A DNA stretch of 40,305 bases from Alcaligenaceae bacterium. GTDB taxonomy: Bacteria > Pseudomonadota > Gammaproteobacteria > Burkholderiales > Burkholderiaceae_B. Of this stretch, positions 582 to 20,918 are shown in pieces. Location: assembly GCA_012735395.1 (NCBI GenBank), contig JAAYHN010000039.1, forward strand, positions 1 through 40,305. The letters are read 5' to 3'. The position numbers were made by a program, and so were the translations under genes. Within the stretch, counting starts at the first letter, position 1; the number at the start of each line of letters is the position of its first letter. The notes below the pieces were generated by a model, which was given only the letters and a program-made list of their open reading frames with translations, made no database searches and was not told the origin of the DNA.

Positions 582-699
582 TCAGTCAACAGCGCGTAAA
601 ATTTTCTGTACTTCCTCTACATTGACAACAGTGGCCTGGCCACCCCATTCGGCACGCATCCAGGTAGCTAAGTCCGCAATTTCTTCATCATCCAACGCA
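582..699 (-). pseudogene. C-terminal remnant of a c-type cytochrome
   Basis: The last ~38 residues of the 143-aa [21 protein letters not shown]...[14 protein letters not shown], do not belong to the transposase that precedes them. They match the C-terminal helix pattern of class I cytochrome c domains (LSDEEIAALATYVRxxWGN type), such as those in membrane dehydrogenase cytochrome subunits. No CxxCH haem motif remains. The stop is followed by a good terminator, consistent with the genuine 3' end of a former gene. The rest was removed when the IS701-type element arrived or recombined. Family assignment rests on a short pattern, so confidence is moderate. Confidence 0.55.
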
Positions 700-1258
700 C
701 GCTCAATCATGCGTTGGGCCAGTTGGGGCTTGGTCTCAAATCCCACCGATGCAGGGATGCCTGCGCTGCGGCAGCGTGCCTCGTCCTCGATCCACTCTTT
801 GGGCAGGTAGAGTTGACGATCAATGAAGGCAGCACCCCCACAGCCGGCGTAGCATAAAAAGACACCCACCTGGCTGTTCTCAATGCGACCCGCCGTGCCG
901 CTGTACTGGCACTTGACGCCTGCCGAATGCCGTCCCTTCTTGAGAAAGCCGGTTTCATCGACAATCAGCACGGCATCTTCATCACCCAGGTGCTCGATCA
1001 CGTACTCACGCAAAATGTCTCGCGCCTGGTCGGCATCCCAGTGGAGTGGGCTCGTTCGAGCAAATGCTGGACTCCGTCAGGGGTGGCATCCCGAATGAAC
1101 TCGGCCAACTGCCAGCTATTTTTACGTTCAATGTTGCTCAACAGCCCCTGCAGATAACCCAATGCCCGTGTTCTGGGCTTAGATCGCCTGAACAGGTTTG
1201 CTAGGCGACTATGGAGATTCAACAGCTCTTGCAACCAGGGTTGCACCGATACCATCAT
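697..1258 (-). pseudogene. IS701-family transposase remnant, frameshifted and 3'-truncated
   Basis: Two minus-strand frames together give the N-terminal half of an IS701-family DDE transposase: WLQELLNLHSRLANLF...ERKNSWQLAE, then [17 protein letters not shown] with the first catalytic Asp region, [18 protein letters not shown], and LYLPKEW. The frame is broken at 1040-1049 by a five-base tandem duplication (AGTGG AGTGG on the plus strand); removing one copy restores ...[18 protein letters not shown]. The C-terminal half, including the remaining catalytic residues, is absent: similarity ends at IERALD near 697 and runs directly into the cytochrome tail. The element cannot encode a working transposase. 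Confidence 0.8.
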
Positions 1259-1582: not shown

Positions 1583-1635
1583 CGTATATCGCCAGTGAGT
1601 ATTTGATTTGCTTGATGTACCTGTCTGGCGCAGAA

Positions 1636-4600: not shown

Positions 4601-4920
4601 AGCAACGCATTCGTGAAGTGGCAGCCCTGCAGAAGGTCCAGAGCATCGACAAGCTGAAGCGGGAAATCGAGGAGCAGCGCAAGACCCATATTCAGTTCAG
4701 CCTGCTCGACGACGCCGACGCCCTGGCTGAAAAGCGCCTGCGCGATCTGGAGGATGAACTCAAACGTCGGCAGAACCAGTTTGGCGACCTGCAGGAGCGC
4801 TTGAGTCAAGAGAAGATCCGCATTCTTGAACAGGTGCTGCCACGCCGCTTTGCCCTGCGTGGCGAAGCCCAGGTATTCCCGGTCACCATTGAAATTCGCT
4901 TTCCGGAGGTGAGTGTATGA
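1636..4920 (+). CDS. drmD-like: SNF2/SWI2-family helicase, DrmD-like (DISARM class 1)
   Basis: This is a large superfamily 2 ATPase predicted to remodel or translocate on DNA in an antiphage system. Residues are counted from the ORF-track TTG at 1603: Walker A DVGLGKT near 170, Walker B DEAH near 285, motif III TATPHNG near 318, then the second RecA lobe with IIFTEYKTTLDYL near 564, VATDAASEGLNLQ near 618 and QRNGRIDRHGQ near 648, the signature of SNF2-type enzymes. The last ~150 residues form a charged coiled coil (KLKREIEEQRK...KRLRDLEDELKRRQ). Possible starts are TTG 1603, ATG 1615, ATG 1636 and ATG 1642; none has a good Shine-Dalgarno, and I list 1636. The stop overlaps the next gene by four bases (ATGA), indicating translational coupling. 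Helicase family is certain; the DrmD relationship rests on architecture and the neighbouring methylase. Confidence 0.85.
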   Translation: MNMKEEKNNLGLDKGSLPRVGMLATVRNRRGVISAVEPFSDSKSSALLHLVTIEFSDADGDAEESLLWERERSPVVLEPNALPRLDREAPMQQDEFLALQRAARWSALTPFLSASNPAERSDPVPTAPVYGAVSVDDFQLVPLARAMRMPRVSLLLADDVGLGKTIEAGLILAELIRKRRIRRVLIITPASLRTQWQQEMEEKFSLGFDIVDKAATHKLQKEMGLDANPWRALPRIITSYHYLRQPDVLEQFIANCESIKQQGGAQLPWDLLIVDEAHNLMPSNFGEDSDLAKMLRLLTPYFEHRLFLTATPHNGHTRCFSGLLEQLDPVRFTQTPDFTDKERKMIGDVLIRRLKSEINDQDRQAGRAPRFAKRYLEPLPLYMFRPEQELAVAVRQFCTQLKGIIRTAPEARMVLNFAIEILRKRLLSCPVAFADSWLRFKEGLATKEALQAAEVAAARRASEEDIDDDQERESRSRHAAQVVGAWMHPYVELLQPEIEAIDAALKSLGLDKQPVITAKPKSDARFERLRELIGKELRNAEQWKGDERLIIFTEYKTTLDYLVNRLNAEYSAEPGSICQLYGGMHEDEREAVKRAFNDPDSPVRILVATDAASEGLNLQHTARLLMHYEIPWNPSRLEQRNGRIDRHGQSRDVTIFHFTSEDDSDLQFVARVLGKVNDIREDLGSVGELFDAAFQRRMMEMNEDQDVLGDLDLQINNRRSATEDAQVHTDERGEEEKQRLQQLMDDLDLSPDTLKATLTIAMGLGATREVLEGPDTLGRMRLRTPLPSRWQAVVDDSLRLPSQKGVSGAMPWLVFDNRFFIHNVNGRPVFRPSPDTVLLHLGHPLLRQSLNAFARLRFPGGQADFQPPSRWLVSRGEVPAGAQALVLFTVEEMAVNDLRETFHHWTRTLALPVQNSALGQPLPYNGPHCGQLGRQSAGDMAAARDLWDDIEDDIRTLLACYRRELTQTLRTQLKSAYDQAKSHEKEAFEQRIREVAALQKVQSIDKLKREIEEQRKTHIQFSLLDDADALAEKRLRDLEDELKRRQNQFGDLQERLSQEKIRILEQVLPRRFALRGEAQVFPVTIEIRFPEVSV

Positions 4921-7900
4921 GTCTGCATGCAGAAGGATGGGCACAGCTGCGGCATGGCGGCCTGTTGATATCTCCGGCCAAACTGGATGAGTTCTTTCCA
5001 GATCCGGCCGCGGCCATGTCCGATTACCAGGCTGACAAGCTCCGCCGCGCCCTCACGGCCTTTGATGGCAGCAGCGAGACGCTGGGCAACCTGCTAGATT
5101 ACATCCTGCAGGACCTTTCGGGTCTGCCTGCCGAAGAGTGGCAAAAAGCCCAGGCTGTCGACAGCCGCTGGGCGGTACGCAGCTTCACTGGTGTTCTGAT
5201 CAAACCCCGCCGCCTGTGGCTGGGGCCAAACGGGGAAACCCTGGCCGTGTTCACCCCCGACGATAGCGGTTCGCGGCAGTTTGCCAGCCGTCTGGGTGTC
5301 GGGCGTTCAAAACAGTTGCTTGGCCGGGTGGTGGAATGGCTGCGTCGTACCGGGCAGGCACTGGCACTGGTCACTAATGGCCGGCAATGGCGGTTGGTGT
5401 ACGCCGGTGCCGATTACGAGGCCTGGTGTGAATGGGATATCGAACTTTGGTTCAGTGAGGGGCAGCCGGCAGCGCAAACGCTGATCTGGCGCACGCTGCT
5501 CAACCGCAGCACCCTGCTGGCAGAGCAAGGTCAGAACCGCTTGTTGCAGGCGATCAGCGCCTCACGCAAGGGCCAGGCTGAACTGTCCAATGTGCTGGGC
5601 GAGCGTGTTCGTCAGGGCGTCGAGGAGCTGATCACTGCCTCCCACGTCGCTATCGAGCAGGCCCAGCAGCAAGGGCAGGCTCACGATTACAAGGACCTGT
5701 ATGTGGCTGGCTCGCGCATCATCATGCGCTGCATCATTACCCTGTTTGCCGAAGCCCGCGGCCTGATGCCGGTCGACAACTCGATTTACCAGCAGGCCTA
5801 CAGTCTGGAAGGGCTGCGCCATCAGCTGGATCGGCGTGCCGGTGGCCGCGGCAACGAACGCTTGAGTCAGGGCCGTAGTGCTTGGCCGCGCCTGATTGGC
5901 TTGTTCAATCTGATCCACGAAGGCTCCGCCCATGAGCGCCTGAGTGTCCCGCAATACGGTGGCGCGCTGTTTGAGCCGGGCAGCCCTGCCAGTGACGACG
6001 GTATTTCGCGCGCGCTGGCGCTGCTGGAAAGCAGTCAGAACCTGGTCAGCGACCTGCAGGTACACAAGCTGCTGCGCCTGCTGACCCGCACCAAGATGAA
6101 AGTGCGTCAGGGCCGCAGCAGCCGCTGGGTGGATGCGCCGGTGGATTTCTCCACCCTGTCCTCGGAATACATCGGCATTCTCTATGAGGGCCTGCTTGAT
6201 TTTGAATTGAAGCAAGCCGCTGATAACGACCCGGTCATCTTCCTGGCGGTCGGCAACCAGCCGGCGCTGACCCTGTCACAGCTGGAAGCCATGGATGACA
6301 AGGCGATCAAGCAGCTGTTTGAGGCGCTGAAGAAAAAAGACTCCACCGGTGACGACAGTGAGGAGGAGGCGGATGAGGGCGTCGAAGAATCCGCTGACCT
6401 CGATGACAGCAGCGATGACGAGGCGGACGCCGTCGAAGACGACTCAGAGGAAGACACCAACACCAGTGACGACAGCGAAGAGCTGACCCTCAGCGAAGAT
6501 CATCTGCTGCGCGCCAACACCTGGCTACAGCATGCCGCGCAGATTGCCGGGCTGGTGAAAAAGCCCCGTGGCCGCAAAGCCAATACCGCTGCCGACGAAG
6601 CCCAGCAGGCGCTGGAAAAGGCCGCCAAGCAGCTCTGCGCCCGCATTGTGGCGCCCGGCCAGTTTTTTCTGGTGCGCTGGGGTGGGACCCGCAAGGGCGC
6701 GGGCACCTTCTATACCCGTCCGCAACTGGCCGCACCCACCGTGCGCCGTACCCTGCAGCCGCTGGCCTATGACGCCGTGCAAACCGAGACCGACCCGCGC
6801 ACCGGCCTGGACAGCGTGGTGGAGTGGGCACCGAAAACCCCGGAACAGATACTGGCCCTGAAAGTGTGCGATCCGGCCATGGGCTCTGGCTCCTTCCTCG
6901 CTGGCGCCCTGCGCTACCTCACCGAAGCGCTCACCCAGTCGCTGTTCCATCACAAACTGATCGAGCGCAGCGAAGACGGCGGTGTGCCGCGCATGGCCGA
7001 CGGCAAGCTGGCTGAACTGCTCAGCGACGAGATGACCAAGCTCAACCCCAAGGATGATGGTTTTGAAGAGGCCCTGCGCGCCCAGCTCAAGCGTCACATT
7101 GTGGAGCGATGCCTGTACGGTGTGGACCTTGATCCGCTGGCGGTGGAACTGGGGCGTATGGCGCTGTGGGTCGAAACCATGGATCGCGACCTGCCCTTTG
7201 GTTTCCTCGACCACAAGCTCAAGGTCGGTAACGCCCTGGTCGGTACCTGGTTCGATACCTACCGTGATTACCCGGCCATGGCCTGGCAGCGCGAGGGCGG
7301 TGACAAGGATTACCAGAAGAACAAGCCGGACAACCTGATCAACCACTGGTACGAGGACGCTAAAGGAAAGCGCAAGGGCGACGTCTTTACCGATGCGATC
7401 AAGGCGCGAGCCAAAGCCGTGCCTGAACAACTGCAGGCGCTGCTCAGCGGCCAGCTGACACTGGAAGGCGGGCTGGACGCGGCCAATGTGCACGACGAGC
7501 TGCTCAAGGTGTTCCGCAAACTGCATCGCCTGCCGGTGCATGAAAGTGAAAAGCGCGCCGAGATATACCAGCAGGAGGTGCTGAACAACCCGCACTACCA
7601 CGCCCTGAAAGCACGTATGGATCTGTGGTGTGCACTATGGTTCTGGCCGGGTGAGCAGATCGAGCTGGCCCCCTTGCCACGCGAGTTTGCCAACCCCACA
7701 GAGCAGGCACTGGCCATTGTCGCCGAGGTGGCGCGCCGCCAGCGCTTCTTCCACTGGGAGCTGGAGTTCCCGGATGTGTTCACCGCCAGCCAGGACGGTT
7801 TTGATGCGCTGTTGGGCAACCCGCCGTGGGAAATCCAGAAGCCCAACTCCAAGGAATTTTTCTCCAACCACGACCCGCTCTACCGCGCCTACGGCAAGCA

Positions 7901-9974
7901 GGATGCCTTGGCTAAACAACTGGAGTATTTCCGCGACTGGCCACAACTGGAGCACGGCTGGATTGCCTACAACGCCAACCTTAAGGGTATGTCCAACTGG
8001 GCGAAGTACGTGGGCAAGCCCTTTGGTGATTGGGTTACTGAAGACAAGGATGGCAAAAAGAGGCACGACCTGAATCTGGGGGGGCGCGGTAGGAACAGCT
8101 TCGAGGCCTCTGCAGCCGCACACAAAAAATGGCTGCAGCAGCGAAACAAGCACAAGGGCTTTGCCGATACTGCACACCCCTTCCTGTATCAGGGCTCGGC
8201 CGACCTGAACACCTATAAGCTGTTTCTGGAACTGAGTCACGCCTTGCTACGCAAGCAGGGACGGCTGGGCATGATCGTGCCCAGCGGTATCTATACCGAC
8301 AAGGGCACCACCGACCTGCGTGAGCTGTTCCTGGCCCAGTGCGACTGGCAATGGCTGTTTGGCTTCGAGAACCGTGAAGGTATTTTCGATATTCACCGTT
8401 CTTTTAAATTCTGCCCGCTGATTGTGCAGAAGGGCGGGCAAACCCAGGCCATCCGCGCCGCCTTTATGCACCGCAACGTGGATGACTGGGAGCAAGCCGA
8501 GCGCCATGTGCTGGCCTATCCGCGGGCGCGGGTGGAGGAGTTCTCGCCTTACTCCAAGGCCATTCTGGAAATCCGCAGCGAGCAGGACCTACGCGTGTTG
8601 CAGAAGATCTACGCCAACGGTGTGCTGCTGGGCGACCAGAGTGAAAACGGCTGGGGCATCAAGTACGCCCGCGAGTTCGATATGACGAACGACTCCAAGC
8701 TGTTCCCGCCGCGGCCCAAATGGGAGGAAAAGGGCTACCGCCCCGACGAATACGGCCACTGGCTAAAAGGCCCCTGGCAGGATTACCACGGCCCGCAGCA
8801 CATTCTGGATCGCGAGCCAGGGCTGGTGCTGTCGCGGGACGGGCAGCAGGCGCTGCGGGTGGATGAGATTGAGGATGTGGCGTTGCCGCTACTCGAAGGC
8901 AACATAATCGACCAGTTTCAGGTTTCCTCAAAAGGGTGGGTTTCCGGGAAAGGCCGCTCTGCTGTTTGGCGAGAAATCACCTCAGATAGTGAGGAGCTTG
9001 ATCCTCAGTATTTGATAAGCCTTGAAGATGCCGCCTCAAAAAAATACAAATCTGGAGAGATGGCTGGTCAGCCAAAATGGAGCCCCGTTCCAAAGGTAAC
9101 TTTTATTGACGTTACGTCCGCGACCAACGCACGGACTGCCCGAGCTACCTGTACTCCATTTTTCCCCTGTGGCAACACGTCAGCCGTGCTTGTTTCTCAG
9201 CAAAATGTATTTGCACTCGCAACCGCTATGAACTCCTTCGTTTATGACTTCGTTTCGAGAGCACGATGTGGTGGCTTGCACCTGAATTGGTTTGTGGTTG
9301 AGGAGTCTGTACTCCCTGATAAAGCAGTGGCGCCTTTTTTGGCCAGAATTGGCCAGGCCTTGATCGGCCACCTCAAGATTTTCAGCTTTACCCTTGAAGA
9401 CCATATCAAGGCTTTTGCTTTAATGCCGACGGAGCGCATTCGCCAGCGGTGCATATCGGAAGCCTTGATTGCGAACGCGTTGGCCCTTTCCAATGACGAG
9501 ATTGTTTATATCTTGGCTGATTGCGACCATCCCAGAAGGTCGCTTACGGACGCTTTCACTACTCAGCTTAACCCCAAAGGCTTCTGGCGTATCGACAAGG
9601 ACAAAGACCCGGAATTGCGCCATACCGTCCTGTCACTGATCGCCTTCCACGACCTGCAGGAGAAAGGTCTCGACGCCTTCCTCGCTCAGAATGACGGCGA
9701 AGGCTGGATGATTCCCGAGCAGCTGCGCCTGGCCGATTATGGTCTGGGCCATGATGACCGTGCGCAGGAATACCAGCCGGTGGCCTCGCGCCTTGGACCG
9801 CGCTTCTACGATTGGCAACTCAACGAGGATGTGGAGCGCTCCTGGCAGGAATGCGCCGCCCATGCCGAGCTGATCCGCCGCATTGTGCCGCTGCCCGACC
9901 CCGAACCCGCAGATGGCGCTCCCGAAGTGCGCGCCACCAATAAAAACGAATCACCGCAGGGAGCACTATTCTGA
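4917..9974 (+). CDS. drmMI-like: Large N6-adenine DNA methyltransferase, DrmMI-like / type IIG-like
   Basis: This 1685-residue protein carries SAM-binding motif I DPAMGSGSFL at about 652 and the catalytic NPPW motif at 968-971, as in Eco57I/PglX/DrmMI-type adenine methylases, plus GVDLDPLAVELGRMALWVE. The first ~450 residues are a large helical domain of unknown role, separated by a strikingly acidic low-complexity linker (residues ~475-525, mostly D, E and S). The C-terminal third should hold target recognition; the DNA at about 8880-9560 drops to 38-48% GC in sampled rows against about 62% just before it, suggesting an exchanged recognition segment. I see no restriction-nuclease motif with confidence. 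In DISARM the methylase marks host DNA so that partner proteins spare it. The gene overlaps the next one as TGATG. Confidence 0.85.
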   Translation: MSLHAEGWAQLRHGGLLISPAKLDEFFPDPAAAMSDYQADKLRRALTAFDGSSETLGNLLDYILQDLSGLPAEEWQKAQAVDSRWAVRSFTGVLIKPRRLWLGPNGETLAVFTPDDSGSRQFASRLGVGRSKQLLGRVVEWLRRTGQALALVTNGRQWRLVYAGADYEAWCEWDIELWFSEGQPAAQTLIWRTLLNRSTLLAEQGQNRLLQAISASRKGQAELSNVLGERVRQGVEELITASHVAIEQAQQQGQAHDYKDLYVAGSRIIMRCIITLFAEARGLMPVDNSIYQQAYSLEGLRHQLDRRAGGRGNERLSQGRSAWPRLIGLFNLIHEGSAHERLSVPQYGGALFEPGSPASDDGISRALALLESSQNLVSDLQVHKLLRLLTRTKMKVRQGRSSRWVDAPVDFSTLSSEYIGILYEGLLDFELKQAADNDPVIFLAVGNQPALTLSQLEAMDDKAIKQLFEALKKKDSTGDDSEEEADEGVEESADLDDSSDDEADAVEDDSEEDTNTSDDSEELTLSEDHLLRANTWLQHAAQIAGLVKKPRGRKANTAADEAQQALEKAAKQLCARIVAPGQFFLVRWGGTRKGAGTFYTRPQLAAPTVRRTLQPLAYDAVQTETDPRTGLDSVVEWAPKTPEQILALKVCDPAMGSGSFLAGALRYLTEALTQSLFHHKLIERSEDGGVPRMADGKLAELLSDEMTKLNPKDDGFEEALRAQLKRHIVERCLYGVDLDPLAVELGRMALWVETMDRDLPFGFLDHKLKVGNALVGTWFDTYRDYPAMAWQREGGDKDYQKNKPDNLINHWYEDAKGKRKGDVFTDAIKARAKAVPEQLQALLSGQLTLEGGLDAANVHDELLKVFRKLHRLPVHESEKRAEIYQQEVLNNPHYHALKARMDLWCALWFWPGEQIELAPLPREFANPTEQALAIVAEVARRQRFFHWELEFPDVFTASQDGFDALLGNPPWEIQKPNSKEFFSNHDPLYRAYGKQDALAKQLEYFRDWPQLEHGWIAYNANLKGMSNWAKYVGKPFGDWVTEDKDGKKRHDLNLGGRGRNSFEASAAAHKKWLQQRNKHKGFADTAHPFLYQGSADLNTYKLFLELSHALLRKQGRLGMIVPSGIYTDKGTTDLRELFLAQCDWQWLFGFENREGIFDIHRSFKFCPLIVQKGGQTQAIRAAFMHRNVDDWEQAERHVLAYPRARVEEFSPYSKAILEIRSEQDLRVLQKIYANGVLLGDQSENGWGIKYAREFDMTNDSKLFPPRPKWEEKGYRPDEYGHWLKGPWQDYHGPQHILDREPGLVLSRDGQQALRVDEIEDVALPLLEGNIIDQFQVSSKGWVSGKGRSAVWREITSDSEELDPQYLISLEDAASKKYKSGEMAGQPKWSPVPKVTFIDVTSATNARTARATCTPFFPCGNTSAVLVSQQNVFALATAMNSFVYDFVSRARCGGLHLNWFVVEESVLPDKAVAPFLARIGQALIGHLKIFSFTLEDHIKAFALMPTERIRQRCISEALIANALALSNDEIVYILADCDHPRRSLTDAFTTQLNPKGFWRIDKDKDPELRHTVLSLIAFHDLQEKGLDAFLAQNDGEGWMIPEQLRLADYGLGHDDRAQEYQPVASRLGPRFYDWQLNEDVERSWQECAAHAELIRRIVPLPDPEPADGAPEVRATNKNESPQGALF

Positions 9975-12900
9975 TGCTGAACCCCATTACCTACACCGAA
10001 GAGGTCGTCAGCGATTTTCTGCGCTACCAGCTCAGCACCTATGCCTTTGCCGATGAAAACCTCTATCGGCAGATGCGTGACCTGCTCAACCTGGAGCACA
10101 CCCGCAATACGCCGCTGCTGAAGGGGCCGTTTATCTCGCTGTCTCGCACCTTTATGAAAGGCGCCAGCCTGGAACAACTGGTCAAGGAAGGCGTGCTGCA
10201 TCCGCATATTCGCCAGCTGTCCCCGTACCCTGGAGCCTACCTGCACCAGGAGAAAGCCTTCCGTTCCATCAAGGATGGTCGTACCACCCTGGTAGCGACC
10301 GGTACCGGTTCGGGCAAGACAGAATCTTTCCTGCTGCCGATCATCAGCCGCTGCCTGCAGTTGCGTGATGAGGGCGCCGAGGCGGGTGTCACAGCGGTGA
10401 TTGTTTACCCGATGAACGCCCTGGCCGAAGACCAGTTGCAGCGCATGCGCGAGCTGCTGGTGGGCACCGGCGTCACCTTCGGCATGTATGTGGGCAAGAC
10501 CCCGCGTACCGAAGCGGACGTGAATGGTGTACGACTCGATCCTGGCAGCACGGTGGTGGATTACCGCAGCAAGTTGCAGCAGATGCAGCAGCAGAAGATC
10601 GACGTCGCCCTGCATCCCGCGGAGGAGCGGGTAAGCCGCGAAGCCATGCGCACCAACGGCCAGCAGCCGCGCATTCTGCTGACCAACGTCAAACAGCTGG
10701 AATTGCTGCTGACCCGCCAGCAGGATCTGGAGTTGTTCGATAGCGCCCGTCTGGAATTTATGGTGTTCGACGAGGCGCATACCTTTACCGGCGCCGGTGG
10801 TGCCGAAACCGCCTGCCTGATCCGACGATTGCGCTCCTACTGCGGCAAGGACGAGAGCAGCACGACCTGCATCGCCACCTCGGCCACCATTGCCGATCCG
10901 CGTCGCGGCATCGAGGCTGGCCGCGAGTTTGCCAGCCGATTTTTTGGCATTGATGGCCAAAATGTCGAGCTGATTGGCGAGGCCTACGAAGAGGACATCT
11001 GGGGCGAGCCGCGCAGCGTCAGTGCACCCTTCAATGGCGATCAGGCCATGCAGCTGAAAACCGTGCTGGAAATGCTTGGCACCCTGGACAAAGCCGAGGT
11101 TGATGCTGCTGACCTGCAAGCCTTCCGCATCTGGTTCCAGACCACCAGCGGCATGCGCATGGCCGGCGATAACTGGCGTGAAGCGCTGAACCAATGGCTC
11201 AGCCACAACGAGGTGGTCTACCAGATTGCCGAGGCCCTGCGCCGGCCGCGGGCCGTCGCCAGTCTGTTGGATGATTTGAACGCAGCCCTGGGTCGCCCGA
11301 TTACCGAAGAGGAAATTTTGATCTGGCTGGCGCTGGGCGCTGCGGCACGAAATGGCGACCGCCCCCTGCTACGCCCTGTGGTGCATGGCTTTGTGCGCGG
11401 GGTTAGCGGTGCGGTGGTGACTTTCGAGGAAGGCCAGGGTCAGCCTGCCAAGTTGTGGCTGTCTGCCGAAGATGCCATCAGCGACGATGCAGGCCGTGAT
11501 ACAGAGTTGAAGCCCTTCCCGCTATCCAGTTGCACCACCTGCGGCCAGCATTATTTCGAGCACGGATTGGAAGACTTCAACTTCACCGGCAGCGAACCGG
11601 GTGGCGGCTCCGCTGAAGGCAAGAACCGCGCTTGGCGGGCAACCGACATTACCCTGGGTGGGGTGCGTGCGGTTTCGTTGGACCACCAGGTGGGTTCGGA
11701 TGGGGAGGAGGAGCCTTCGCGCACCGAAGTGCTGTTTGTCTGCCGCTACTGCGGCACCACCCACGACCGGCAGTTGCCGGAGTGCGTCGGCTGCGGCCGT
11801 AACAAGGTGCTGAAGGCGCTGCATTTCGTTCAGCAGAAAGAAGACCAGATTGGCCGATTGACTCGTTGTGTGTCCTGCGGTGCCCAGGGCCGCCGAGTAA
11901 CCGGCAATTACCGAGAGCCTGCCCGTCCAGTGCGTGCTACCGGTGTGGCCGACGTGCATGTACTAGCGCAAAGTATGATCCACCGAGCCGAACGTAAGCG
12001 CTTACTGGTATTTGCTGATAATCGCCAAGATGCTGCCTTTCAGGCTGGCTGGATGCAGGATCGCTCGCGCCGCTATCGTCTGCGGGAGTTGATCTACAAG
12101 AAACTGAGTGCCGGTGCGGTGTCGGTCAGTGATCTGGTGCTGTGGCTGGATCAGTACCTGGATGCCGACGACGAGTTGTCGCGCGCCTTGATACCTGAAG
12201 TCTGGCGGGTGGAGAGCAAGTCGGAAACCAGTCTGGCGCATGCCGAGGAGCGCAAATGGTTCCTGCGTGCTCAGTTGCTGCGCGAGCTGACGTTAGGGGC
12301 ACGGCAAAGTACTGGTTTGGAGCCGCTGGGCCGACTGAAGATTCGTTACCGGGGACTGGATGAGGCACACCCGATGATTCAGAAATGGGCCGCAAGCCTG
12401 GGGTGCTCGGCGCACGATCTGCGTGAAGGCGTTGCCTCGTTGCTAGATGCCGCCCGTTCCCGGCGTATGCTGTTCGATCCCATTACCCGCATGTATTCCA
12501 AGTACTGGTTGGATGGCGAGAAAGAGGTGCTACGGGGTTATTTACCTAACATGCGCGGTGTGCCTGAGGCGCTGGTATTCGAACGTGATGGCCAGCACGA
12601 CAAGGGCCGCATCAAGCAATGGTTCAGCAACTACGACAGTGCAGCCAAGCAGGCAGCTGGCGCCTGGGGTGTGCCGCATGATCAGATTCAAGCATTTTTG
12701 CAGGACGTATGGCGCTTGTGTAGTGATGAACTGGAGTTACTCACCCAGGTTCAGCTAAAAGGTGCCCGTGGCAAGAACCTGCCGGGCTGTCACGGCGCCA
12801 CCCAGGTGCACGTGGATAATCTGATGCTGGTGCCCGCCACCGGCATGTACCGCTGCCAGACCTGCCGTCGGCTGCATGCTCGGGTCAACCCGGGGATGAC

Positions 12901-15900
12901 CTGTATGGCCTGGCGTTGTAACGGCAAGATGGTGTTTGAGGAGGAAAACTCGGACAACTACGATTTGCTGCTGCTGGACCAGGAGTTTTCCATGCTGCGT
13001 GCCCGCGAGCATTCGGCACAGATTCCAGGCCCTGAACGTGAGCGCATCGAGAATGCCTTCAAGGGCGAAAGTGAGCGTATCAATACGCTGGTGTGTACAC
13101 CCACCCTGGAAATGGGCGTCAACATCGGTGCCCTGGACGCCGTGCTGATGCGCAACGTACCGCCATTGCCGGCCAACTACTGGCAGCGTGCCGGCCGGGC
13201 TGGGCGCCAGTTCCGCATGGCGCTGGATCTGACCTACGCCCGAACGACCAGCCATGACCGTGCCTACTTCAACGAGCCATTGAAAATGCTCGAAGGGTTG
13301 GTGGAGCCCCCCAGCTTCAACCTACGCAACCCGGTTATGGTGGCCAAGCATGTCAACGCGACGGTGCTGACCACGCTGCTGCAGATGTTGCGCTCCAACA
13401 GCTTGCCAGACACACAGGCAAGGAATCTGGAGCAGGCGCTGGGTACTTGTTTGCCAGGCCAGATCCGGCCTTATCTGTTTACTGCCGAAGGCATGGTGCG
13501 TGAGGCACCTTTGTCGGTTACGCCACTGGCTCAACAAATTGCTGCGCACCAACCCAGCCTGTTAAGTGCGGTATTGAAGGCCTTCCAGCAGGGTTGGCCT
13601 GCAGGCGATAGCGAAGTGGTCAGCCGTGAACAGCTGGAATCGGTCATCGGAGGTTTTGCCGATCAGTTGCAAGGGGTGATCGATCGCCTGTTCCAGCGCT
13701 TGCAGTGGGCGCTCGCCCAGCTGGAGCGACTGCGTAAGGTCGCCGCAGGCAAGGGTGCGCTGGATGCCGACGAAGAGGCGCTGCGTGCCCGTTGCGAGCG
13801 TCTGGTGAAAAAACTCAAGGGTGAGGCGCGCCGCAACCGCAATCAGGCTGAAGGCATCGACGATACCAACACCTACGGCGTGCTGGCGGCTGAAGGCTTC
13901 CTGCCGGGTTATGGCCTGGATACCGGTGCGGTGACTCTGACCCATGTGGCGCCGCGCCACAGCAGCGATATCAGCGATTGGGAGCTGCGCCGCAACACGG
14001 CGCTGGCCGTGCGCGAGTACGTGCCCGGCAACTTGATCTATGCCAACGCTCACAAGTTCGTGCCGCGGCATTTTCATCTGATTCCGGAAGAACCGCTGAC
14101 CTTTGCCGTGGATGTCGCCAGCGAATCCGTTCAAGAGACAGGACCATCTTCCAAAGCTGGCAGTGAAGTCAGCTCAATGTCGATCTCGCAGATTCCCGGT
14201 GTTGCTATCTGCGATGTGGACGCGCCGCACCATTCCTACATATCGGATGACGAGGACTACCGCTTTCAGATGTCCGTGGCTGTTTTTGCCCAGGATCAGG
14301 GGCGGCATTCCGGCGGCAGTCTTTACGAGTGGGGTAAATCCCAGCTGCAACTCAAACACGGTATGCACATGCGTCTGGTCAATGTCGGCGCTGCCTCCCA
14401 GGTACGCTCTGGCACCTTGTTGGGCTATCCCTTATGTCTGGTCTGCGGCGCCAGCCGCTCGGCCATGAGCAGTCAGCAGGAACTCGACAAGTTTAACGAG
14501 CACCATGTCGAACGATGCGGGCGGCCGATTCAGAACATTGCTTTTTACGCTGAGGTGGTGGCTGATGCACTGGTGCTGCAGGACTGTGCCTCCCAGGAAA
14601 CAGCCTACAGCGTCATGGAGTCGCTGCGACAGGGTGCGGCCGATGTGCTGGATATGGAAATTTCCGACCTGCAGGTACAGGTGATTGGCAAGCCGGGCAG
14701 TGAAACGGTCGATGCCTTGCTGTATGACCCTATGCCGGGAGGTTCTGGCCTACTGGAGCAGTTGCTGGCTCACTGGGCAGATGTGGTGGCCGCAGCCCGC
14801 CGACTGGCCGAAGAGTGCCCATCGGCCTGCGAGGCATCCTGTGTGGATTGTCTGCAGCATTTCCGTAACTCCTTCTATCACGACAAGCTGAACCGCCATA
14901 CGGCACTGGAAGCATTCAATGACTGGGGCGATACCCTGAGTTTCAGCCACGAGCTGGCGCCAGTTTTGCCGGATGAAACCCTGACCCAGCAACCGGGTAA
15001 TCCCCCTGAACAGCAATTGGTGGCGCTGCTCAAAGCCGCCGGTATGCCGACATTCGAAACAGAGAGCCCGATAGCGCTTTCTGGGGGTATCACCACCCGC
15101 CCGGATGTGTATTTCCACGAACCCAACGACCAGTACGAAGGTGTCTGCATTTATCTGGATGGTATGAGTGAGCACTTGCATGGCAACGCCCAGACAGCCG
15201 CCAAGGACCGCCAGATCCGTCAGGAGCTGCTGAACACTGACTACGAAGTCATCGAGATCCAGTTCCAGGAGCTGTACGACAAAACGGTGATGCGTGAGCA
15301 TATGCGCCGGATTGCTCGCGCCGTGGTTGGCAGGGCCAGAGCCAAGGAGCTGGCTGACGATGATGCATGGTTTGATCAAGCCGGGAGGGTAACTACTGAG
15401 CCTAATGCGGTAAAAAGCAATGTGCTGCCCTTCAGAACGGTCAGCCCCTCTGATTCTGCCTTTGAGCCCTACGCTAATTGCGTACCTCTGATAGGGCTGC
15501 AGGCTGCCGCAGGCGCCTGGAGTCATGAGCAGGACAGCCTGGTGGCACTGGCTGACTATGCTGAGGAGTGGGTGAGCATTGATAACCACAAGCTGGAGCC
15601 AGGGATGTTCTTGGCTCAGGTCGTGGGGCATTCCATGGAGCCACTGGTACCTGATGGTAGCTACTGCCTGTTCCGGCCAGTCCCCGCCGGCAGCCGGCAG
15701 GGGCGAAAGTTATTGGTTTGGCACGCAGGGGTAACCGATGCCGACACTGGGGGCGAGTACACGTTGAAGGTGTACAGCAGTGAAAAAGTTGCCCACGCTG
15801 ACGGAGAATGGCAGCACGACCGCATTACGCTGAAACCCTTGAATCCTGTTTATCAGCCACTGTTCCTGGAGCCTAAAGATGAAGGATCTGTTCGAGTGAT

Positions 15901-15928
15901 TGCTGAGTTTGTAAAGGTGGTGGGATGA
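9974..15928 (+). CDS. Giant YprA/DUF1998-family helicase with C-terminal Vsr-like nuclease and LexA/S24-like autoprotease segments
   Basis: This 1984-residue protein has, in order: Walker A GTGSGKTE (110-117), DEAH (266-269), TSATI near 302, several Cys-pair zinc-ribbon segments between ~520 and 640 and near 960, motif IV LVFADNRQDAAF near 676, CTPTLEMGVN near 1040, QRAGRAGR near 1072, then the DUF1998/MZB region with CLVCGAS (~1486) and CEASCVDCLQHFRNSFYH (~1620). Two further modules follow. Residues ~1691-1792 fit a Vsr/DUF559-type nuclease pattern (RPDVYF with D1711, CIYLDG with D1729, KDRQIRQELL, YEVIEIQ). Residues ~1835-1984 fit an S24 peptidase (PLIGLQAAAGAW, GHSMEP with S1887, YTLKVY with K1932). 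YprA/MrfA, DrmA/DrmB and DruE are relatives. It is coupled to its neighbours by one- and four-base overlaps. The helicase/DUF1998 call is firm; the nuclease call is moderate; the S24 call is strong by motif. Confidence 0.85.
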   Translation: MLNPITYTEEVVSDFLRYQLSTYAFADENLYRQMRDLLNLEHTRNTPLLKGPFISLSRTFMKGASLEQLVKEGVLHPHIRQLSPYPGAYLHQEKAFRSIKDGRTTLVATGTGSGKTESFLLPIISRCLQLRDEGAEAGVTAVIVYPMNALAEDQLQRMRELLVGTGVTFGMYVGKTPRTEADVNGVRLDPGSTVVDYRSKLQQMQQQKIDVALHPAEERVSREAMRTNGQQPRILLTNVKQLELLLTRQQDLELFDSARLEFMVFDEAHTFTGAGGAETACLIRRLRSYCGKDESSTTCIATSATIADPRRGIEAGREFASRFFGIDGQNVELIGEAYEEDIWGEPRSVSAPFNGDQAMQLKTVLEMLGTLDKAEVDAADLQAFRIWFQTTSGMRMAGDNWREALNQWLSHNEVVYQIAEALRRPRAVASLLDDLNAALGRPITEEEILIWLALGAAARNGDRPLLRPVVHGFVRGVSGAVVTFEEGQGQPAKLWLSAEDAISDDAGRDTELKPFPLSSCTTCGQHYFEHGLEDFNFTGSEPGGGSAEGKNRAWRATDITLGGVRAVSLDHQVGSDGEEEPSRTEVLFVCRYCGTTHDRQLPECVGCGRNKVLKALHFVQQKEDQIGRLTRCVSCGAQGRRVTGNYREPARPVRATGVADVHVLAQSMIHRAERKRLLVFADNRQDAAFQAGWMQDRSRRYRLRELIYKKLSAGAVSVSDLVLWLDQYLDADDELSRALIPEVWRVESKSETSLAHAEERKWFLRAQLLRELTLGARQSTGLEPLGRLKIRYRGLDEAHPMIQKWAASLGCSAHDLREGVASLLDAARSRRMLFDPITRMYSKYWLDGEKEVLRGYLPNMRGVPEALVFERDGQHDKGRIKQWFSNYDSAAKQAAGAWGVPHDQIQAFLQDVWRLCSDELELLTQVQLKGARGKNLPGCHGATQVHVDNLMLVPATGMYRCQTCRRLHARVNPGMTCMAWRCNGKMVFEEENSDNYDLLLLDQEFSMLRAREHSAQIPGPERERIENAFKGESERINTLVCTPTLEMGVNIGALDAVLMRNVPPLPANYWQRAGRAGRQFRMALDLTYARTTSHDRAYFNEPLKMLEGLVEPPSFNLRNPVMVAKHVNATVLTTLLQMLRSNSLPDTQARNLEQALGTCLPGQIRPYLFTAEGMVREAPLSVTPLAQQIAAHQPSLLSAVLKAFQQGWPAGDSEVVSREQLESVIGGFADQLQGVIDRLFQRLQWALAQLERLRKVAAGKGALDADEEALRARCERLVKKLKGEARRNRNQAEGIDDTNTYGVLAAEGFLPGYGLDTGAVTLTHVAPRHSSDISDWELRRNTALAVREYVPGNLIYANAHKFVPRHFHLIPEEPLTFAVDVASESVQETGPSSKAGSEVSSMSISQIPGVAICDVDAPHHSYISDDEDYRFQMSVAVFAQDQGRHSGGSLYEWGKSQLQLKHGMHMRLVNVGAASQVRSGTLLGYPLCLVCGASRSAMSSQQELDKFNEHHVERCGRPIQNIAFYAEVVADALVLQDCASQETAYSVMESLRQGAADVLDMEISDLQVQVIGKPGSETVDALLYDPMPGGSGLLEQLLAHWADVVAAARRLAEECPSACEASCVDCLQHFRNSFYHDKLNRHTALEAFNDWGDTLSFSHELAPVLPDETLTQQPGNPPEQQLVALLKAAGMPTFETESPIALSGGITTRPDVYFHEPNDQYEGVCIYLDGMSEHLHGNAQTAAKDRQIRQELLNTDYEVIEIQFQELYDKTVMREHMRRIARAVVGRARAKELADDDAWFDQAGRVTTEPNAVKSNVLPFRTVSPSDSAFEPYANCVPLIGLQAAAGAWSHEQDSLVALADYAEEWVSIDNHKLEPGMFLAQVVGHSMEPLVPDGSYCLFRPVPAGSRQGRKLLVWHAGVTDADTGGEYTLKVYSSEKVAHADGEWQHDRITLKPLNPVYQPLFLEPKDEGSVRVIAEFVKVVG

Positions 15929-18132
15929 GTGTGGCGCACCGTGCAACCTGGTTCGTCGGGGCCAGTTACGGCGGTACTGATGACCAGAGGCCGCGATTTC
16001 TTGCAGATGGAATTTGGGAGAATGGCTATGACGACAAACTCCTCGATGTAGTGCGTTCCATGCGCCCGGGAGAGCGGATCGCCATCAAGTCGTCTTATAC
16101 GCGAAAACACGGTCTGCCTTTCGATAGCCGAGGTCGAGCGGTTTCGGTTATGGGCATCAAGGCGGTCGGCACCATCACTGAAAATCTGAACGACGGGAAG
16201 AGGGTGAAGGTGGACTGGGCCAAGGTCGAGCCGGTACGAGAATGGTACTTCTACACTCACCGAGGGACCGTCTGGCGTGTGCTTCCCGGCGAATGGATGA
16301 ATGATGCGCTGATTGCATTTGCGTTTGACGGCCAGCCGCAGGATGTGGATCGCTTTCGAAACCAGCCCTTTTGGCGTGAGCGTTATGGCACGACTTCGCC
16401 AGAAAAGCAGCGCTTCGAGTGGACGGACTTCTACGAGGCAGTGGCCGAAAAGCTGCTGGCCCACGCAGACGATCGAACTCCGCTCATCGAGGGCATCCAC
16501 GAGATCGCGTCCCGGGTGCCGGGGCTGACCTATCTCCAGGATAAGTTTCCCGATGGAACCAGTGGTCCGCTGCGGGACATTTGCCCATTCACCACGATGG
16601 GCACCTTTAACCGGTCCATGACCGATGCCAACCGCAAGACCATCGCGGGTGAACTTGCCAAGTTGCTGGGTGTGACGGTGCCGGTCCCGCCTTCATTCGA
16701 AGGCATTCCCGTTCTTAACAACCAACGTTCCTGGTTTTTTGCCTATGCCGACAAGCGTGGTGCGGGCGACATCGACGCGCTATGGAAGGTATTCGTTGCC
16801 GCGAGCAAGATGGTCGATGGCGACCAGTTGGACACTCGCGATGCCTTCATCCGGGCTTATGACGAGGCAACCCAAGTATGGGGTGTCGCATGGAACCTTT
16901 CGACAGGTCTCTACTGGGCGCATCCGTGGGAATTCCTGACCTTGGATAGCCAGTCGCGCCACTACATCAACAAGCGGCTCGGCCTGAATGTCGCCATGAG
17001 TGGTCAGCAGGGCCCATGTGATGGTCAGGCCTATTTGAAGCTGCTGGACGATTTGCGTTCGCGCTTCGGCGAAGACGGCTATCCGGTCCACAGTTTCCCG
17101 GACTTGTCGCTTGCGTCCTGGATGTACAAAGACACGGTTGACGAGCCTGTGCCGGCTGGCGATATTGGTACCAATGCCGGAGCAGAACAGGAAACTGAAG
17201 GTGAAGTTCGCGAAGCCTTTCAGGTTGCAGCGCCAATCGTTCCCTACTCGGTGGAGGATATCCTCAAGGACGGCTGTTTCCTGGAGCGGACCGAGATTGA
17301 CCGCTTGCTCGATCGTCTGCGCACAAAAAAGAACCTCATCCTTCAGGGGCCTCCGGGCACGGGCAAGACCTGGCTAGCCAAACGGCTCGCGTTCGCGCTC
17401 ATGGGCCAGAAGGACGACAGCAAGGTCCGTGCAGTGCAGTTCCACCCCAACCTGTCTTACGAGGACTTTGTTCGAGGGTGGCGCCCCACTGGCGAAGGCA
17501 AGTTGTCGCTGGCGGACGGTGTCTTCATGGAAGCTATCAAGGCCGCTTCGAAGGACCCTTCGTCGAAGTTTGTCGTGGTGATCGAGGAGATCAACCGTGG
17601 AAACCCAGCGCAGATCTTCGGTGAGTTGCTGACGCTGCTTGAGGCCGGCAAGCGGACACCCAACGAAGCGCTGGAACTCTGCTATCCCGATGCAGACGGC
17701 AAACGACGTCCCGTCCATATTCCCGAGAATCTCTATGTGGTCGGCACCATGAATATCGCCGACCGATCACTTGCACTGGTCGATCTGGCATTGCGTCGCC
17801 GCTTTGCTTTCGTTGGGCTGGAGCCAAGACTGGGCCAGGTTTGGCGGGAGTGGGTGGTCAAGGAGTGTGCTGTCGATCCGGGCTTGGTCGCGGATATCGA
17901 GCGCCGTATCGCCGAGCTGAACGACCAGATCGCGGCGGACGCGCGCCTTGGCAAGCAATTCCGAATTGGTCACAGCTATGTGACCCCTGCACATCGACTG
18001 GAAGCCGGAGACACGAAGAAGTGGTTCCTGCAGGTCGTGGAAACGGAGATCGGCCCGTTGCTGGATGAATACTGGTTCGACGCGCCCGACGAAGCACAAA
18101 AGGCGATTGCACGGCTGACGCAGGGCTGGTGA
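15925..18132 (+). CDS. mcrB-like: McrB-like AAA+ GTPase with an N-terminal EVE/PUA-like domain
   Basis: The C-terminal half is an McrB-type AAA+ motor: Walker A GPPGTGKT at 475-482, Walker B VVVIEEINRGN near 551-561, and the McrB hallmark GTMNIADRSLALVDLALRRRF near 607-627. In McrBC this motor hydrolyses GTP and drives the McrC nuclease. The first ~130 residues (ATWFVGASYGG...RFLADGIWENGY...KSSYTRKHGLPF...VMGIKAVGTI) resemble an EVE/PUA-like fold of the kind used by many McrB relatives to read a modified base. A helical middle domain follows (~270-360). Its specificity is unknown and may be something other than 5-methylcytosine. The four-base overlap upstream (ATGA) and the overlap with mcrC downstream place it in the defence operon. 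Confidence 0.85.
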   Translation: MSVAHRATWFVGASYGGTDDQRPRFLADGIWENGYDDKLLDVVRSMRPGERIAIKSSYTRKHGLPFDSRGRAVSVMGIKAVGTITENLNDGKRVKVDWAKVEPVREWYFYTHRGTVWRVLPGEWMNDALIAFAFDGQPQDVDRFRNQPFWRERYGTTSPEKQRFEWTDFYEAVAEKLLAHADDRTPLIEGIHEIASRVPGLTYLQDKFPDGTSGPLRDICPFTTMGTFNRSMTDANRKTIAGELAKLLGVTVPVPPSFEGIPVLNNQRSWFFAYADKRGAGDIDALWKVFVAASKMVDGDQLDTRDAFIRAYDEATQVWGVAWNLSTGLYWAHPWEFLTLDSQSRHYINKRLGLNVAMSGQQGPCDGQAYLKLLDDLRSRFGEDGYPVHSFPDLSLASWMYKDTVDEPVPAGDIGTNAGAEQETEGEVREAFQVAAPIVPYSVEDILKDGCFLERTEIDRLLDRLRTKKNLILQGPPGTGKTWLAKRLAFALMGQKDDSKVRAVQFHPNLSYEDFVRGWRPTGEGKLSLADGVFMEAIKAASKDPSSKFVVVIEEINRGNPAQIFGELLTLLEAGKRTPNEALELCYPDADGKRRPVHIPENLYVVGTMNIADRSLALVDLALRRRFAFVGLEPRLGQVWREWVVKECAVDPGLVADIERRIAELNDQIAADARLGKQFRIGHSYVTPAHRLEAGDTKKWFLQVVETEIGPLLDEYWFDAPDEAQKAIARLTQGW

Positions 18133-19298
18133 TGACCGCCGTCGCAGAGCAGGTGGAAAGTGCATCCATGAGCGCTGAGGGGTTCATCGGACGCATTCCG
18201 GTGCGCAACCTCTGGCTGCTGATGCTCTACGCCTCTGACCTGTTCCGCACTCGCGGCATCGGCAAGATCGGCTTGGAAGACAGCCCGGACGATCTACCGG
18301 ATCTAGTCGCGGAGATCCTTGCCCACGCGGTTGAGGTGCGACAGCGTCGCCGCTTGAGTCTTGGATATCGATCTCGTGATGCAGTCATCAATCGCGTGCG
18401 TGGCCGGATCGACGTCTTGACCACCGAACGCCATCAGTTGATGGATAGAGGCCTGGTGGCGTGCCGGTTCGACGAACTCACCATCGACACCCCACGCAAT
18501 CGTTTTGTCCGAGCAGCCTTGGAGTCCATCTCCAGAATTGTTCAGAGGAAGGACATTGTCCATCGGTGCCGCGCACTTGCGAGTGACATGAAGGCAATGG
18601 GTGTATCAGGGGCCGCGCCAACCCGCACCCAGATGAGTACCGACCGTTTCGGCCGTAACGATGCGGACGACAGATTCATGGTGGCAGCCGCAAAGCTGGC
18701 GCTCGATCTGGCGCTGCCTACGGAGGCGTCTGGTGCGAATGTGCTTTCTCTGCCAGACCGAGAGGCGACTTGGGTGCGCCGTTTATTCGAGCGAGCTGTC
18801 GGCGGCTTCTACGAAGTCGTATTGAGCCCGCAGGGCTGGCGTGTGTGTTGCGGCGGGACACTGTCCTGGCAAATCGAGCAGAAGACGGCGGGAATCGACA
18901 AGATTCTGCCGACGATGCGAACGGATATCGTGCTCGAAAACCCGTCGACCGGGCGGCGGATTGTCATCGATACCAAGTTCACCTCGATCGTGACGAGTGG
19001 TTGGTACCGTGAGGAAACCCTGCGCAGCGGATACGTGTACCAGATCTATGCCTATCTGCGCTCCCAGGTTGGGTGCGGCGATGCGCTTGCAGATCGCGCG
19101 AGCGGATTAATGTTGCATCCTGCGATCGGCCAGATGGTGGACGAGACAGTGCTGATCCAGGGGCACGCCATTCGGTTCGCCACTGTGGATTTGACGGCAA
19201 CTCCTGCGGTCATTCGAGCGCAGCTGCTGCGACTCTGCGCGCCAGACCGCGCGATGCAGATCATGGATTCTCCCTTCGAGAAAGCTCGTACGGACTAA
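18132..19298 (+). CDS. mcrC-like: McrC-like nuclease subunit
   Basis: The protein starts with the family hallmark GRIPVRNLWLLMLYASDLF and has ~388 residues, close to usual McrC length. A PD-(D/E)XK-type centre is visible in the C-terminal half: MRTDIVLEN followed by GRRIVIDTKFTS, giving an Asp and a D-x-K about a dozen residues apart (K near 282). McrC supplies DNA cleavage when bound to the McrB ring. The ORF track begins at GTG 18129, but ATG 18132, which overlaps the mcrB stop as TGATG, is equally plausible; ATG 18168 is a third option. The 3' end runs directly into the tail of a decayed integrase lying on the other strand, so the last residues could have been altered by that junction. Confidence 0.85.
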   Translation: MTAVAEQVESASMSAEGFIGRIPVRNLWLLMLYASDLFRTRGIGKIGLEDSPDDLPDLVAEILAHAVEVRQRRRLSLGYRSRDAVINRVRGRIDVLTTERHQLMDRGLVACRFDELTIDTPRNRFVRAALESISRIVQRKDIVHRCRALASDMKAMGVSGAAPTRTQMSTDRFGRNDADDRFMVAAAKLALDLALPTEASGANVLSLPDREATWVRRLFERAVGGFYEVVLSPQGWRVCCGGTLSWQIEQKTAGIDKILPTMRTDIVLENPSTGRRIVIDTKFTSIVTSGWYREETLRSGYVYQIYAYLRSQVGCGDALADRASGLMLHPAIGQMVDETVLIQGHAIRFATVDLTATPAVIRAQLLRLCAPDRAMQIMDSPFEKARTD

Positions 19299-19709: not shown

Positions 19710-20918
19710 TCACATCAACGGCGCCAGTTTTCTGGCCAGTAGTTCCAACGCCTCCCTTCGTTCATTGAAGTAGTCGTGACGGTTGTAGATATCCTCCACG
19801 CCCTTCAGTGTGTGGTTAAGGCATCGCTCGGCAACATGGCCAGGCACCCCTAATGAGGCCAACAGGCTGCGGCACGTGCGTCGCAGGTCATGGACGGTGA
19901 AGTGTTCAAGATCACCCATCTTGTTCTCAGGCTGTACTGCTCTTCCTGGCTCTCTCCCAAACAGTTTGGATATCGCCCGATTTAAAGTGTCCGAGCCCAT
20001 GTGGGGCATTTTGCTTGCTCGTCTGTTAGGGAAGACATAAGAGGAACCAAAAGCGCGCACCTTGAGTTCGTTCAGCCATTGGATAGCCAGGTCTGGCAGG
20101 GGGATGTCAATGGCTACACGGGATTTGCTGCGCTCCTGAGGCAGATACCAAACCTTTTCCTCCAGATCGAACTCACTCCACCTTGCTTCAGTTAGCTCGG
20201 CTTTTCTGACTCCGAGCAAGACCAAGAGCGCACAGGCCAAGTAGTTGTCCCGGGTGAAGCTATCTGATTCTTCCCGGAATATCTTGAAGATGAAGGCCAG
20301 CTCTTCGGTGGTGAGCGCTCTGTCTCTGCTTTTTTCTATGCCGCCCGCATCGTCTACGGCGAAGGCGCTGGCCGGGTTGCTGGCAATCAAATCCAGCTTG
20401 ACGGCATGGTTAAACAGTTGCTTGCAGTACATCAACGCATCGTTGGCGGTGCTCGGTCTATTGCTTTCCGCTATGTTTCTCAAGACCTGCCTGATGTCGC
20501 GGCCCGTGACAGCATCTGGCTTCATTTGCCCAATGACAGGTGAAATTTCTTTGGTGTAGACCCGAAAGGGGATGTGGTGGTGCTTCAGACGCTTGACGTT
20601 GCCTTCGTGCCAGTCGTTGAACAGGTCATCAACACATTTGATGTCGCTATAGCTGGCTCTTTTCTTTTCAACAAGAGGGTCCAGACCCTCACGAAGCTGC
20701 TTCATCTGTAAAGCAGCGGCTAGCCGTGCATCAGCAAGAGACAGGTCATCCACGTTACCCAGCGTCATTTGCTTGCGCTTAGCGTTGGTCGTGAAGCGCA
20801 GCGCCCAATAGGAGCGTCCCCGGGCTGGTACTACAAGGTATAGGCCGTTGCCATCAGCAAAATGTCCGGGTGGTCCTTTGAGCTTTGCACTAACTGACTT
20901 GCTTGTAAGTACTGCCAT
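19710..20918 (-). CDS. int: P4-type tyrosine integrase (DUF4102 N-terminal domain)
   Basis: This 402-residue site-specific recombinase presumably inserted the island. The N-terminal DUF4102 domain (FADGNGLYLVVPARGRSYWALRF, GNVDDLSLADARLAA) is followed by the SAM-like core-binding domain and the catalytic domain. Catalytic residues are visible: first Arg in LLGVRKAEL, HDLRRT, a later CLNHT His position, and the nucleophile Tyr in EDIYNRHDY. Nothing appears broken. Genes of this kind normally lie at one end of the island and read inward from the attachment site; here the start faces yicC and the repeats at 20934-21096, so that end is probably the junction. GC is lower than in the defence operon. 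Confidence 0.9.
   Translation of the reverse strand: MAVLTSKSVSAKLKGPPGHFADGNGLYLVVPARGRSYWALRFTTNAKRKQMTLGNVDDLSLADARLAAALQMKQLREGLDPLVEKKRASYSDIKCVDDLFNDWHEGNVKRLKHHHIPFRVYTKEISPVIGQMKPDAVTGRDIRQVLRNIAESNRPSTANDALMYCKQLFNHAVKLDLIASNPASAFAVDDAGGIEKSRDRALTTEELAFIFKIFREESDSFTRDNYLACALLVLLGVRKAELTEARWSEFDLEEKVWYLPQERSKSRVAIDIPLPDLAIQWLNELKVRAFGSSYVFPNRRASKMPHMGSDTLNRAISKLFGREPGRAVQPENKMGDLEHFTVHDLRRTCRSLLASLGVPGHVAERCLNHTLKGVEDIYNRHDYFNERREALELLARKLAPLM

Follow-up and report, generated by a model that had tools for sequence, protein, structure and literature searches.

The known autoproteases of the Peptidase_S24 type regulate either transcription, as LexA and CI do, or a polymerase, as UmuD does. 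In a 40,305-nucleotide stretch from an Alcaligenaceae bacterium (GenBank assembly GCA_012735395.1, contig JAAYHN010000039.1; hereafter the window), such a domain forms the C-terminal tail of ArmC, a 1984-amino-acid helicase encoded at positions 9974-15928 of the plus strand within a putative defence operon. What, then, is a predicted self-cleaving domain doing at the end of a large DNA-processing enzyme? The reading that we favor, to which we give a probability of about one half, is that the tail is a working LexA/CI-type off switch that cleaves itself in response to RecA filaments on single-stranded DNA (ssDNA), with removal of the enzyme finished by ClpXP.

The tail is a genuine S24 domain. 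Residues 1838-1978 (15485-15907, plus strand, as for all positions in this gene) match positions 1-114 of the 116 in PF00717 (Peptidase_S24) with an E-value of 1.4e-7 and 31.6 bits against the Pfam cut-off of 23.3, and the isolated domain reaches 3.5e-10 and 40 bits. In PHROGs, the phrog_4 "transcriptional repressor" profile matches residues 1837-1982. The predicted self-cleavage bond, assigned from its conservation in related modules, is Ala1846-Gly1847 (15509-15514) in PLIGLQAA-A1846-G1847-AW, with A-A-A at P3-P1. The predicted nucleophile is Ser1887 (15632-15634) in GH-S1887-MEP, and the predicted general base is Lys1932 (15767-15769) in YTL-K1932-VY. A first-pass annotation made from the letters alone had claimed these four residues, and all were found where it placed them, in a domain that scores above the Pfam cut-off. 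The reading frame is unbroken, and the ArmC gene shares bases with both neighbors, its start with the ArmB stop (9974) and its stop with the McrB start (15925). This arrangement is that of translationally coupled genes and rules out a frame error as the source of the tail. The same fusion is present in Alcaligenes faecalis AU14 (98% identical in the S24 domain), Paenalcaligenes hominis, Pseudomonas aestuarii and Marinobacter aromaticivorans. Of approximately 86 Peptidase_S24 matches in 56 genomes of the window's class, the window's is the only one in an open frame of more than about 320 amino acids.

The predicted structure points the same way. An AlphaFold2 (AF2) model of the module, built from a 79-row alignment, has a mean predicted local distance difference test score (pLDDT) of 81 and a predicted template-modelling score (pTM) of 0.80, and its top 22 Foldseek matches in the PDB are all lambda CI, LexA or UmuD, with signal peptidases next. 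Two of the top matches are RecA-filament complexes, 8gmt (UmuD, template-modelling score TMt 0.76) and 8gms (LexA). All 18 matches of the module profile to PDB sequences are likewise LexA, CI or UmuD, at weak significance (best E-value 0.015), and a single-sequence phmmer search of the S24 domain against the PDB gave no matches. As modelled, the fold is LexA-like, as the first-pass annotation had anticipated for a comparison with LexA and UmuD. Its label of LexA/UmuD-type holds for fold and motifs, but lambda CI ranks first in both the profile and the fold search. The module shares with lambda CI, LexA and UmuD its fold, its Ser-Lys dyad and an Ala-Gly bond just ahead of the catalytic core; it differs in that it has no helix-turn-helix (HTH), is neither a transcription regulator nor a polymerase subunit, is located at the C-terminus of, or within, large DNA-processing enzymes, and forms its own clade with a longer Ser-Lys spacing. 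ArmC itself is not a LexA repressor, being a 1984-residue helicase and not a protein of about 200 residues with an N-terminal winged HTH.

In order to assess conservation of the cleavage residues, we aligned 87 modules: the best 80 of at least 557 places found by a profile search of one genome per species in 84,980 species, the window's own and six further sequences. Across these modules, which come from at least 14 phyla, Ala1846, Ser1887 and Lys1932 are each kept in 87 of 87. Gly1847 is kept in 86 (L044 has Ser), as is Ala1845 at P2 (L049 has Val). The commonest letter reaches 59% in the median alignment column, and near-invariance of the Ala, Ser and Lys against this value excludes chance; identity to the window's module is 42-56% for most. 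The patterns used for the DNA scan spanned the Ser region and missed both the Ala-Gly pair and the Lys, so the conservation of these was not directly selected for, although choosing the top 80 by similarity leaves a mild bias. Five modules chosen without patterns, from the sample of 399 genomes described below, are also intact. No close homologue has lost the Ala-Gly pair, a loss that the first-pass annotation had named as telling against its proposal. Cleavage competence is therefore well supported by residue conservation, and the module very probably cleaves itself.

The module is carried by at least ten host architectures. Among the 87 are Type I HsdR proteins (20 modules), ArmC/DruE helicases (17), Schlafen-group-3 (DUF2075) helicases, some of which have a GIY-YIG-like region at the N-terminus (17), HIT/PLD helicases similar to Type IV enzymes (7), EcoEI-type HsdR (4), Type ISP enzymes (4), ArmB/Type IIG-like methylases (2), Res-like proteins encoded next to Mod (2), methyltransferase-HNH proteins (2) and a Type III Res (1), with others besides. 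Of 399 evenly sampled Pseudomonadota genomes, five including the window's have the module, the other four on Schlafen-type helicases. In a tree, all modules group in a single clade that excludes the 20 LexA domains (support 100, a starred branch). A minimum of 28 host-type changes is needed over all groups, compared to a mean of 72.8 for shuffled labels, and starred branches alone force four changes for HsdR, three for ArmC and two for the Schlafen helicases, indicating that the module moved between unrelated enzymes. Given the lack of support for many branches and the long branch of L010, we do not claim exact numbers of fusions. No relative of the module was found in IMG/VR viral contigs or in 50,697 phage records; therefore, the module is apparently not phage-borne, though its profile ranks CI first. 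An ArmC homologue on a plasmid of Synechocystis sp. B12, 49.5% identical over residues 1-1800 and spread over several frames, ends right after the Vsr-like domain described below and has no S24 domain, indicating that the tail is an optional addition. On this plasmid (L009, CP101713.1 14339-49775) the ARMADA-like genes lie in many frames with insertion sequence (IS) elements near. No account of an S24 domain joined to a restriction enzyme or a YprA helicase turned up in the open full-text literature, outside which most subscription journals lie, and automatic domain-architecture lists may already include such proteins. The parts are known, and their combination, a LexA/CI-type autoprotease as an exchangeable regulatory cassette on restriction and defence enzymes, was not found in the literature searched.

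Several carriers deserve mention in their own right. The proteins at L021:3945-6128 and L022:9874-12069 are Schlafen-group-3 helicases with an S24 tail; the N-terminal GIY-YIG resemblance in L022 is below cut-off, L021 has no PADLOC match, and the pair are possibly an undescribed defence protein. The protein at L094:1483-5478 joins S24 to a ResIII helicase, a region with a weak PLD-like match and a HIT domain, the last of which is unusual here; L073, L092 and L102 are grouped with L094, and the helicase part of L094 resembles the Type IV methyl-directed enzymes of PADLOC. A 349-residue protein at L074:364-1410 combines HTH_3 with an S24 domain from within the module clade; it is a regulator-type relative that perhaps lies near the module's origin. 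In Halomonas sp. PA16-9 (L008:12977-15447) the Schlafen-type helicase and its S24 tail lie in two overlapping frames; the L019 homologue is in a single frame, so the split reflects a frameshift or an assembly error.

Upstream of the tail, ArmC residues 1796-1834 (15359-15475) form a variable linker between a nuclease-like domain and S24. Linker identity is 33-64% among close relatives except L024, compared to 63-100% for the remaining domains. In L025 the helicase is 98% identical to that of the window, the linker 64% and the S24 domain 83%, and in this alignment the tail appears to be either faster-evolving or swapped through recombination. The nuclease-like domain, residues approximately 1675-1795 (14996-15358), has no Pfam match; Foldseek aligns it with the homing endonuclease 3r3p at probability 1.00 and TMt 0.79 but an E-value of only 0.05, suggesting a Vsr-like PD-(D/E)xK nuclease fold. 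An MZB/DUF1998 zinc-binding domain (PF09369, E-value 7.8e-11) occupies residues 1549-1627 (14618-14854).

Which subunit carries the module bears on what a cut would do. At Type I loci it is HsdR that bears the tail, and the neighboring HsdM or HsdS lack it (hsdM lay within the stretch examined at 11 of the 20 loci), beside Mod it is carried by Res, and in most operons it is attached to the DNA-attacking subunit. In the EcoEI-type HsdR proteins (L049:293-3073, L050:8815-11583, L061 and L072) the module is not fused to an end but inserted inside the N-terminal PD-(D/E)xK nuclease, where it separates the first helix-strand unit from the catalytic RADYVL...EAKK segment and lies just ahead of RADYVL. 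In a homologue from a cyanobacterial plasmid these two flanks are contiguous (MTEVSAQMADGGRGRADYVL). As the module interrupts the nuclease domain, a cut here would sever it. The predicted cut would leave mostly an [A/V/I]-A-A end. LexA also has Ala at P2 in 29 of 30 sequences, so P2 Ala fails as a marker of module versus LexA, and separates both only from UmuD-like proteins, which vary at this position (VAA, VRA, VIA and VHA) among the roughly five sequences compared. In UmuD-like proteins the removed peptide is dispensable. Latent ClpX signals are established for cleaved LexA (Neher 2003, as cited in PMC4231737), and the LexA-like IrvR is described as carrying a ClpXP C-degron embedded next to its Ala-Gly site (PMC7101444).

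We infer cleavage, its RecA trigger, the off outcome and the ClpXP finish as successive steps of one mechanism. RecA filaments would form on ssDNA after damage to host DNA or during an attack on the host chromosome by the helicase-nuclease itself. A filament would bind the S24 domain, and Ser1887 and Lys1932 would then cut Ala1846-Gly1847, splitting the S24 domain from the helicase and nuclease, which would keep a C-terminal "-AAA" end. This end, like the "-VAA" of cleaved LexA, could be recognized by ClpXP and the enzyme thereby removed, at a time when unmodified, repair-synthesized host DNA is at risk. Such a mechanism would amount to restriction alleviation built into the enzyme, and the mobile module would serve Type I, III, ISP, IIG and IV-like restriction enzymes, as well as Schlafen-type helicases, in the same way. 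The proposed outcome resembles alleviation of EcoKI (PMC4231737, PMC11109961), in which a restriction subunit is removed when host DNA is at risk. In ClpXP-mediated EcoKI alleviation only HsdR is degraded, and its degron is unidentified, simple terminal degrons having been ruled out (PMC4231737), whereas in module hosts the degron would arise by self-cleavage. RecA, ClpX and LexA are all encoded in the window's genome, LexA separately from ArmC, and there is no match to the exact LexA box CTGT-N8-ACAG (perfect consensus only) in the window, giving no sign of transcriptional SOS control. RecA-triggered cleavage of ArmC is plausible. We consider RecA the probable trigger, and an off switch is favored, with similar assurance, in part because constitutive restriction enzymes need to be turned off after damage more than on; ClpXP may or may not be the executor, and we lean neither way. 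The wider proposal, that a single mobile cassette swapped among at least ten unrelated enzyme families is a general damage-triggered self-destruct linking RecA filaments directly to the enzymes without transcription, is somewhat short of even odds.

An opposite arrangement would have the S24 domain keep the helicase-nuclease inactive until RecA-ssDNA arising from phage infection or damage provokes a cleavage that frees the active enzyme. The placement of the module, adjoining the nuclease domain in ArmC and interrupting it in EcoEI-type HsdR, suits autoinhibition, and Druantia III DruE acts late, on ssDNA-containing intermediates (PMC13192584). However, the majority of hosts are classical restriction enzymes that need to act immediately, for which RecA filaments come too late; a damage-activated, methylation-reading nuclease would endanger the host; and the end set free has the -AA form that targets cleaved LexA for degradation. 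We therefore regard an on switch as unlikely. The first-pass annotation had suggested a damage- or phage-sensing switch; a damage off switch is the likelier form of this, and phage sensing is less likely given that the module is mainly on constitutive restriction enzymes and interrupts the nuclease domain in one group.

Cleavage could also have a trigger other than RecA, such as a phage protein or a change of conformation that the enzyme undergoes on DNA, or it could be a slow, constitutive maturation step. The 45 residues between Ser and Lys in the module exceed the 37 of E. coli LexA, and the modules stand in their own clade on the tree. Moreover, IrvR of Streptococcus mutans self-cleaves without RecA, but its authors term this independence an exception (PMC7101444). 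With the fold search matching S24 domains solved with RecA filaments, we think a non-RecA trigger rather improbable.

The C-terminal S24 domains of LexA, CI and UmuD dimerize, and the module might have lost cleavage and act purely in dimerization or docking, as the C-terminal domains of LexA and UmuD' do. In one module, L044, Ala-Gly is replaced by Ala-Ser. Nevertheless, near-perfect retention of Ala-Gly, Ser and Lys over phyla and hosts is unexpected for a binding surface, making this very doubtful. Chance similarity, mis-assembly and frame error have nothing in their favor and are ruled out by the agreement of Pfam, PHROG, profile and fold results and by the same fusion in four other named genomes.

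Several points weigh against a RecA-triggered off switch. The EcoEI-type insertion is also compatible with an on switch and does not exclude one. In two ISP loci (L053 and L054) and two ArmB-like loci (L070 and L078) the module is on the methylase/specificity protein, not on the separate helicase. Type IV-like and Schlafen-type hosts are not known to depend on host methylation, which weakens the alleviation rationale. The "-AA" end may be no more than a legacy of a CI/LexA ancestor, and the UmuD comparison comprises about five sequences. Plasmid-induced EcoKI alleviation is independent of LexA cleavage (PMC11109961), so classical enzymes need no such tail for alleviation. Finally, no cleavage, RecA or ClpXP experiment on any module-bearing protein was found in the open literature. 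At the two ArmB-like loci (L070:4837-9471 and L078:4729-9456) the ArmB-like methylase bears the S24 tail and an ArmA-like helicase is encoded next to it, indicating that the tail can occupy different subunits of related systems.

By its gene content, the operon around ArmC appears to be an ARMADA-type system, ArmD-less and adjoining McrBC, with five genes on the plus strand. ArmA (1603-4920) is a DrmD/BrxHII-like SNF2 helicase (NCBIfam DISARM_DrmD, 645 bits against a cut-off of 610; PADLOC DrmD and BrxHII). ArmB (4917-9974) is a PglX/DrmMI-like adenine methyltransferase, Type IIG in PADLOC (REase_MTase_IIG 2703 bits, DrmMI 430 bits, PF07669). ArmC (9974-15928) is a YprA/DruE-like superfamily 2 (SF2) helicase with the S24 tail (PADLOC DruE3 E-value 2.3e-118, DruE1 8.2e-109; PF00270, PF00271), which gives the earlier term "defence helicase" a precise meaning. 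An McrB-like GTPase (15925-18132; PF07728, NF008457 E-value 6.6e-74) and McrC (18129-19298; NF007277, 453 bits against 338) follow. ARMADA as described by Bell et al. 2025 (PMC12458937) likewise has a BrxHII/DrmD-like helicase, a PglX-like methylase and a YprA/DruE-like helicase with an MZB domain. The A-B-C gene order is that of Type II and some Type I ARMADA systems (PMC12458937), and in the window ArmA and ArmB lie directly upstream of ArmC, which carries PF09369. ARMADA YprA helicases have a C-terminal Vsr-like nuclease (PMC12458937), the position of which fits ArmC residues 1675-1795, with the weak fold match given above. The S24 tail is absent from that description, the main text of which contains none of the words S24, LexA, peptidase or protease. 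A DISARM-like cassette adjoining McrBC was first noted in the CoCoNuT paper, without mention of S24 or LexA. DruE of Druantia type III is the nearest named helicase family in PADLOC; Druantia DruE has two PLD domains (PMC13192584), whereas the ArmC of the window has the Vsr-like domain and S24, and no DruH is among the listed PADLOC matches of the five operon proteins. DISARM class 1, in which DrmA, DrmB and DrmC are separate proteins accompanied by DrmD and DrmMI, was rejected: the operon does encode DrmD- and DrmMI-like proteins, but its helicase resembles DruE (DrmA scores only 53 bits) and it has no DrmB or DrmC. A tyrosine integrase (19710-20918, minus strand) lies beyond McrC and a DDE_5 transposase fragment (582-1013, minus strand) ahead of ArmA, with ordinary chromosomal genes (yicC, rph and hemN) where the operon stops; flanked in this way, the operon resembles a mobile island. 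No tRNA was found in the window.

If the off switch is real, the restriction enzymes themselves would wire RecA filaments directly to immunity. It would suggest how enzymes that are not of the EcoKI type spare the host after DNA damage, and would provide a model for a degron made by self-cleavage, to be compared with HsdR of EcoKI (PMC4231737). In such bacteria, SOS-inducing drugs or conjugation would transiently lower these defences.

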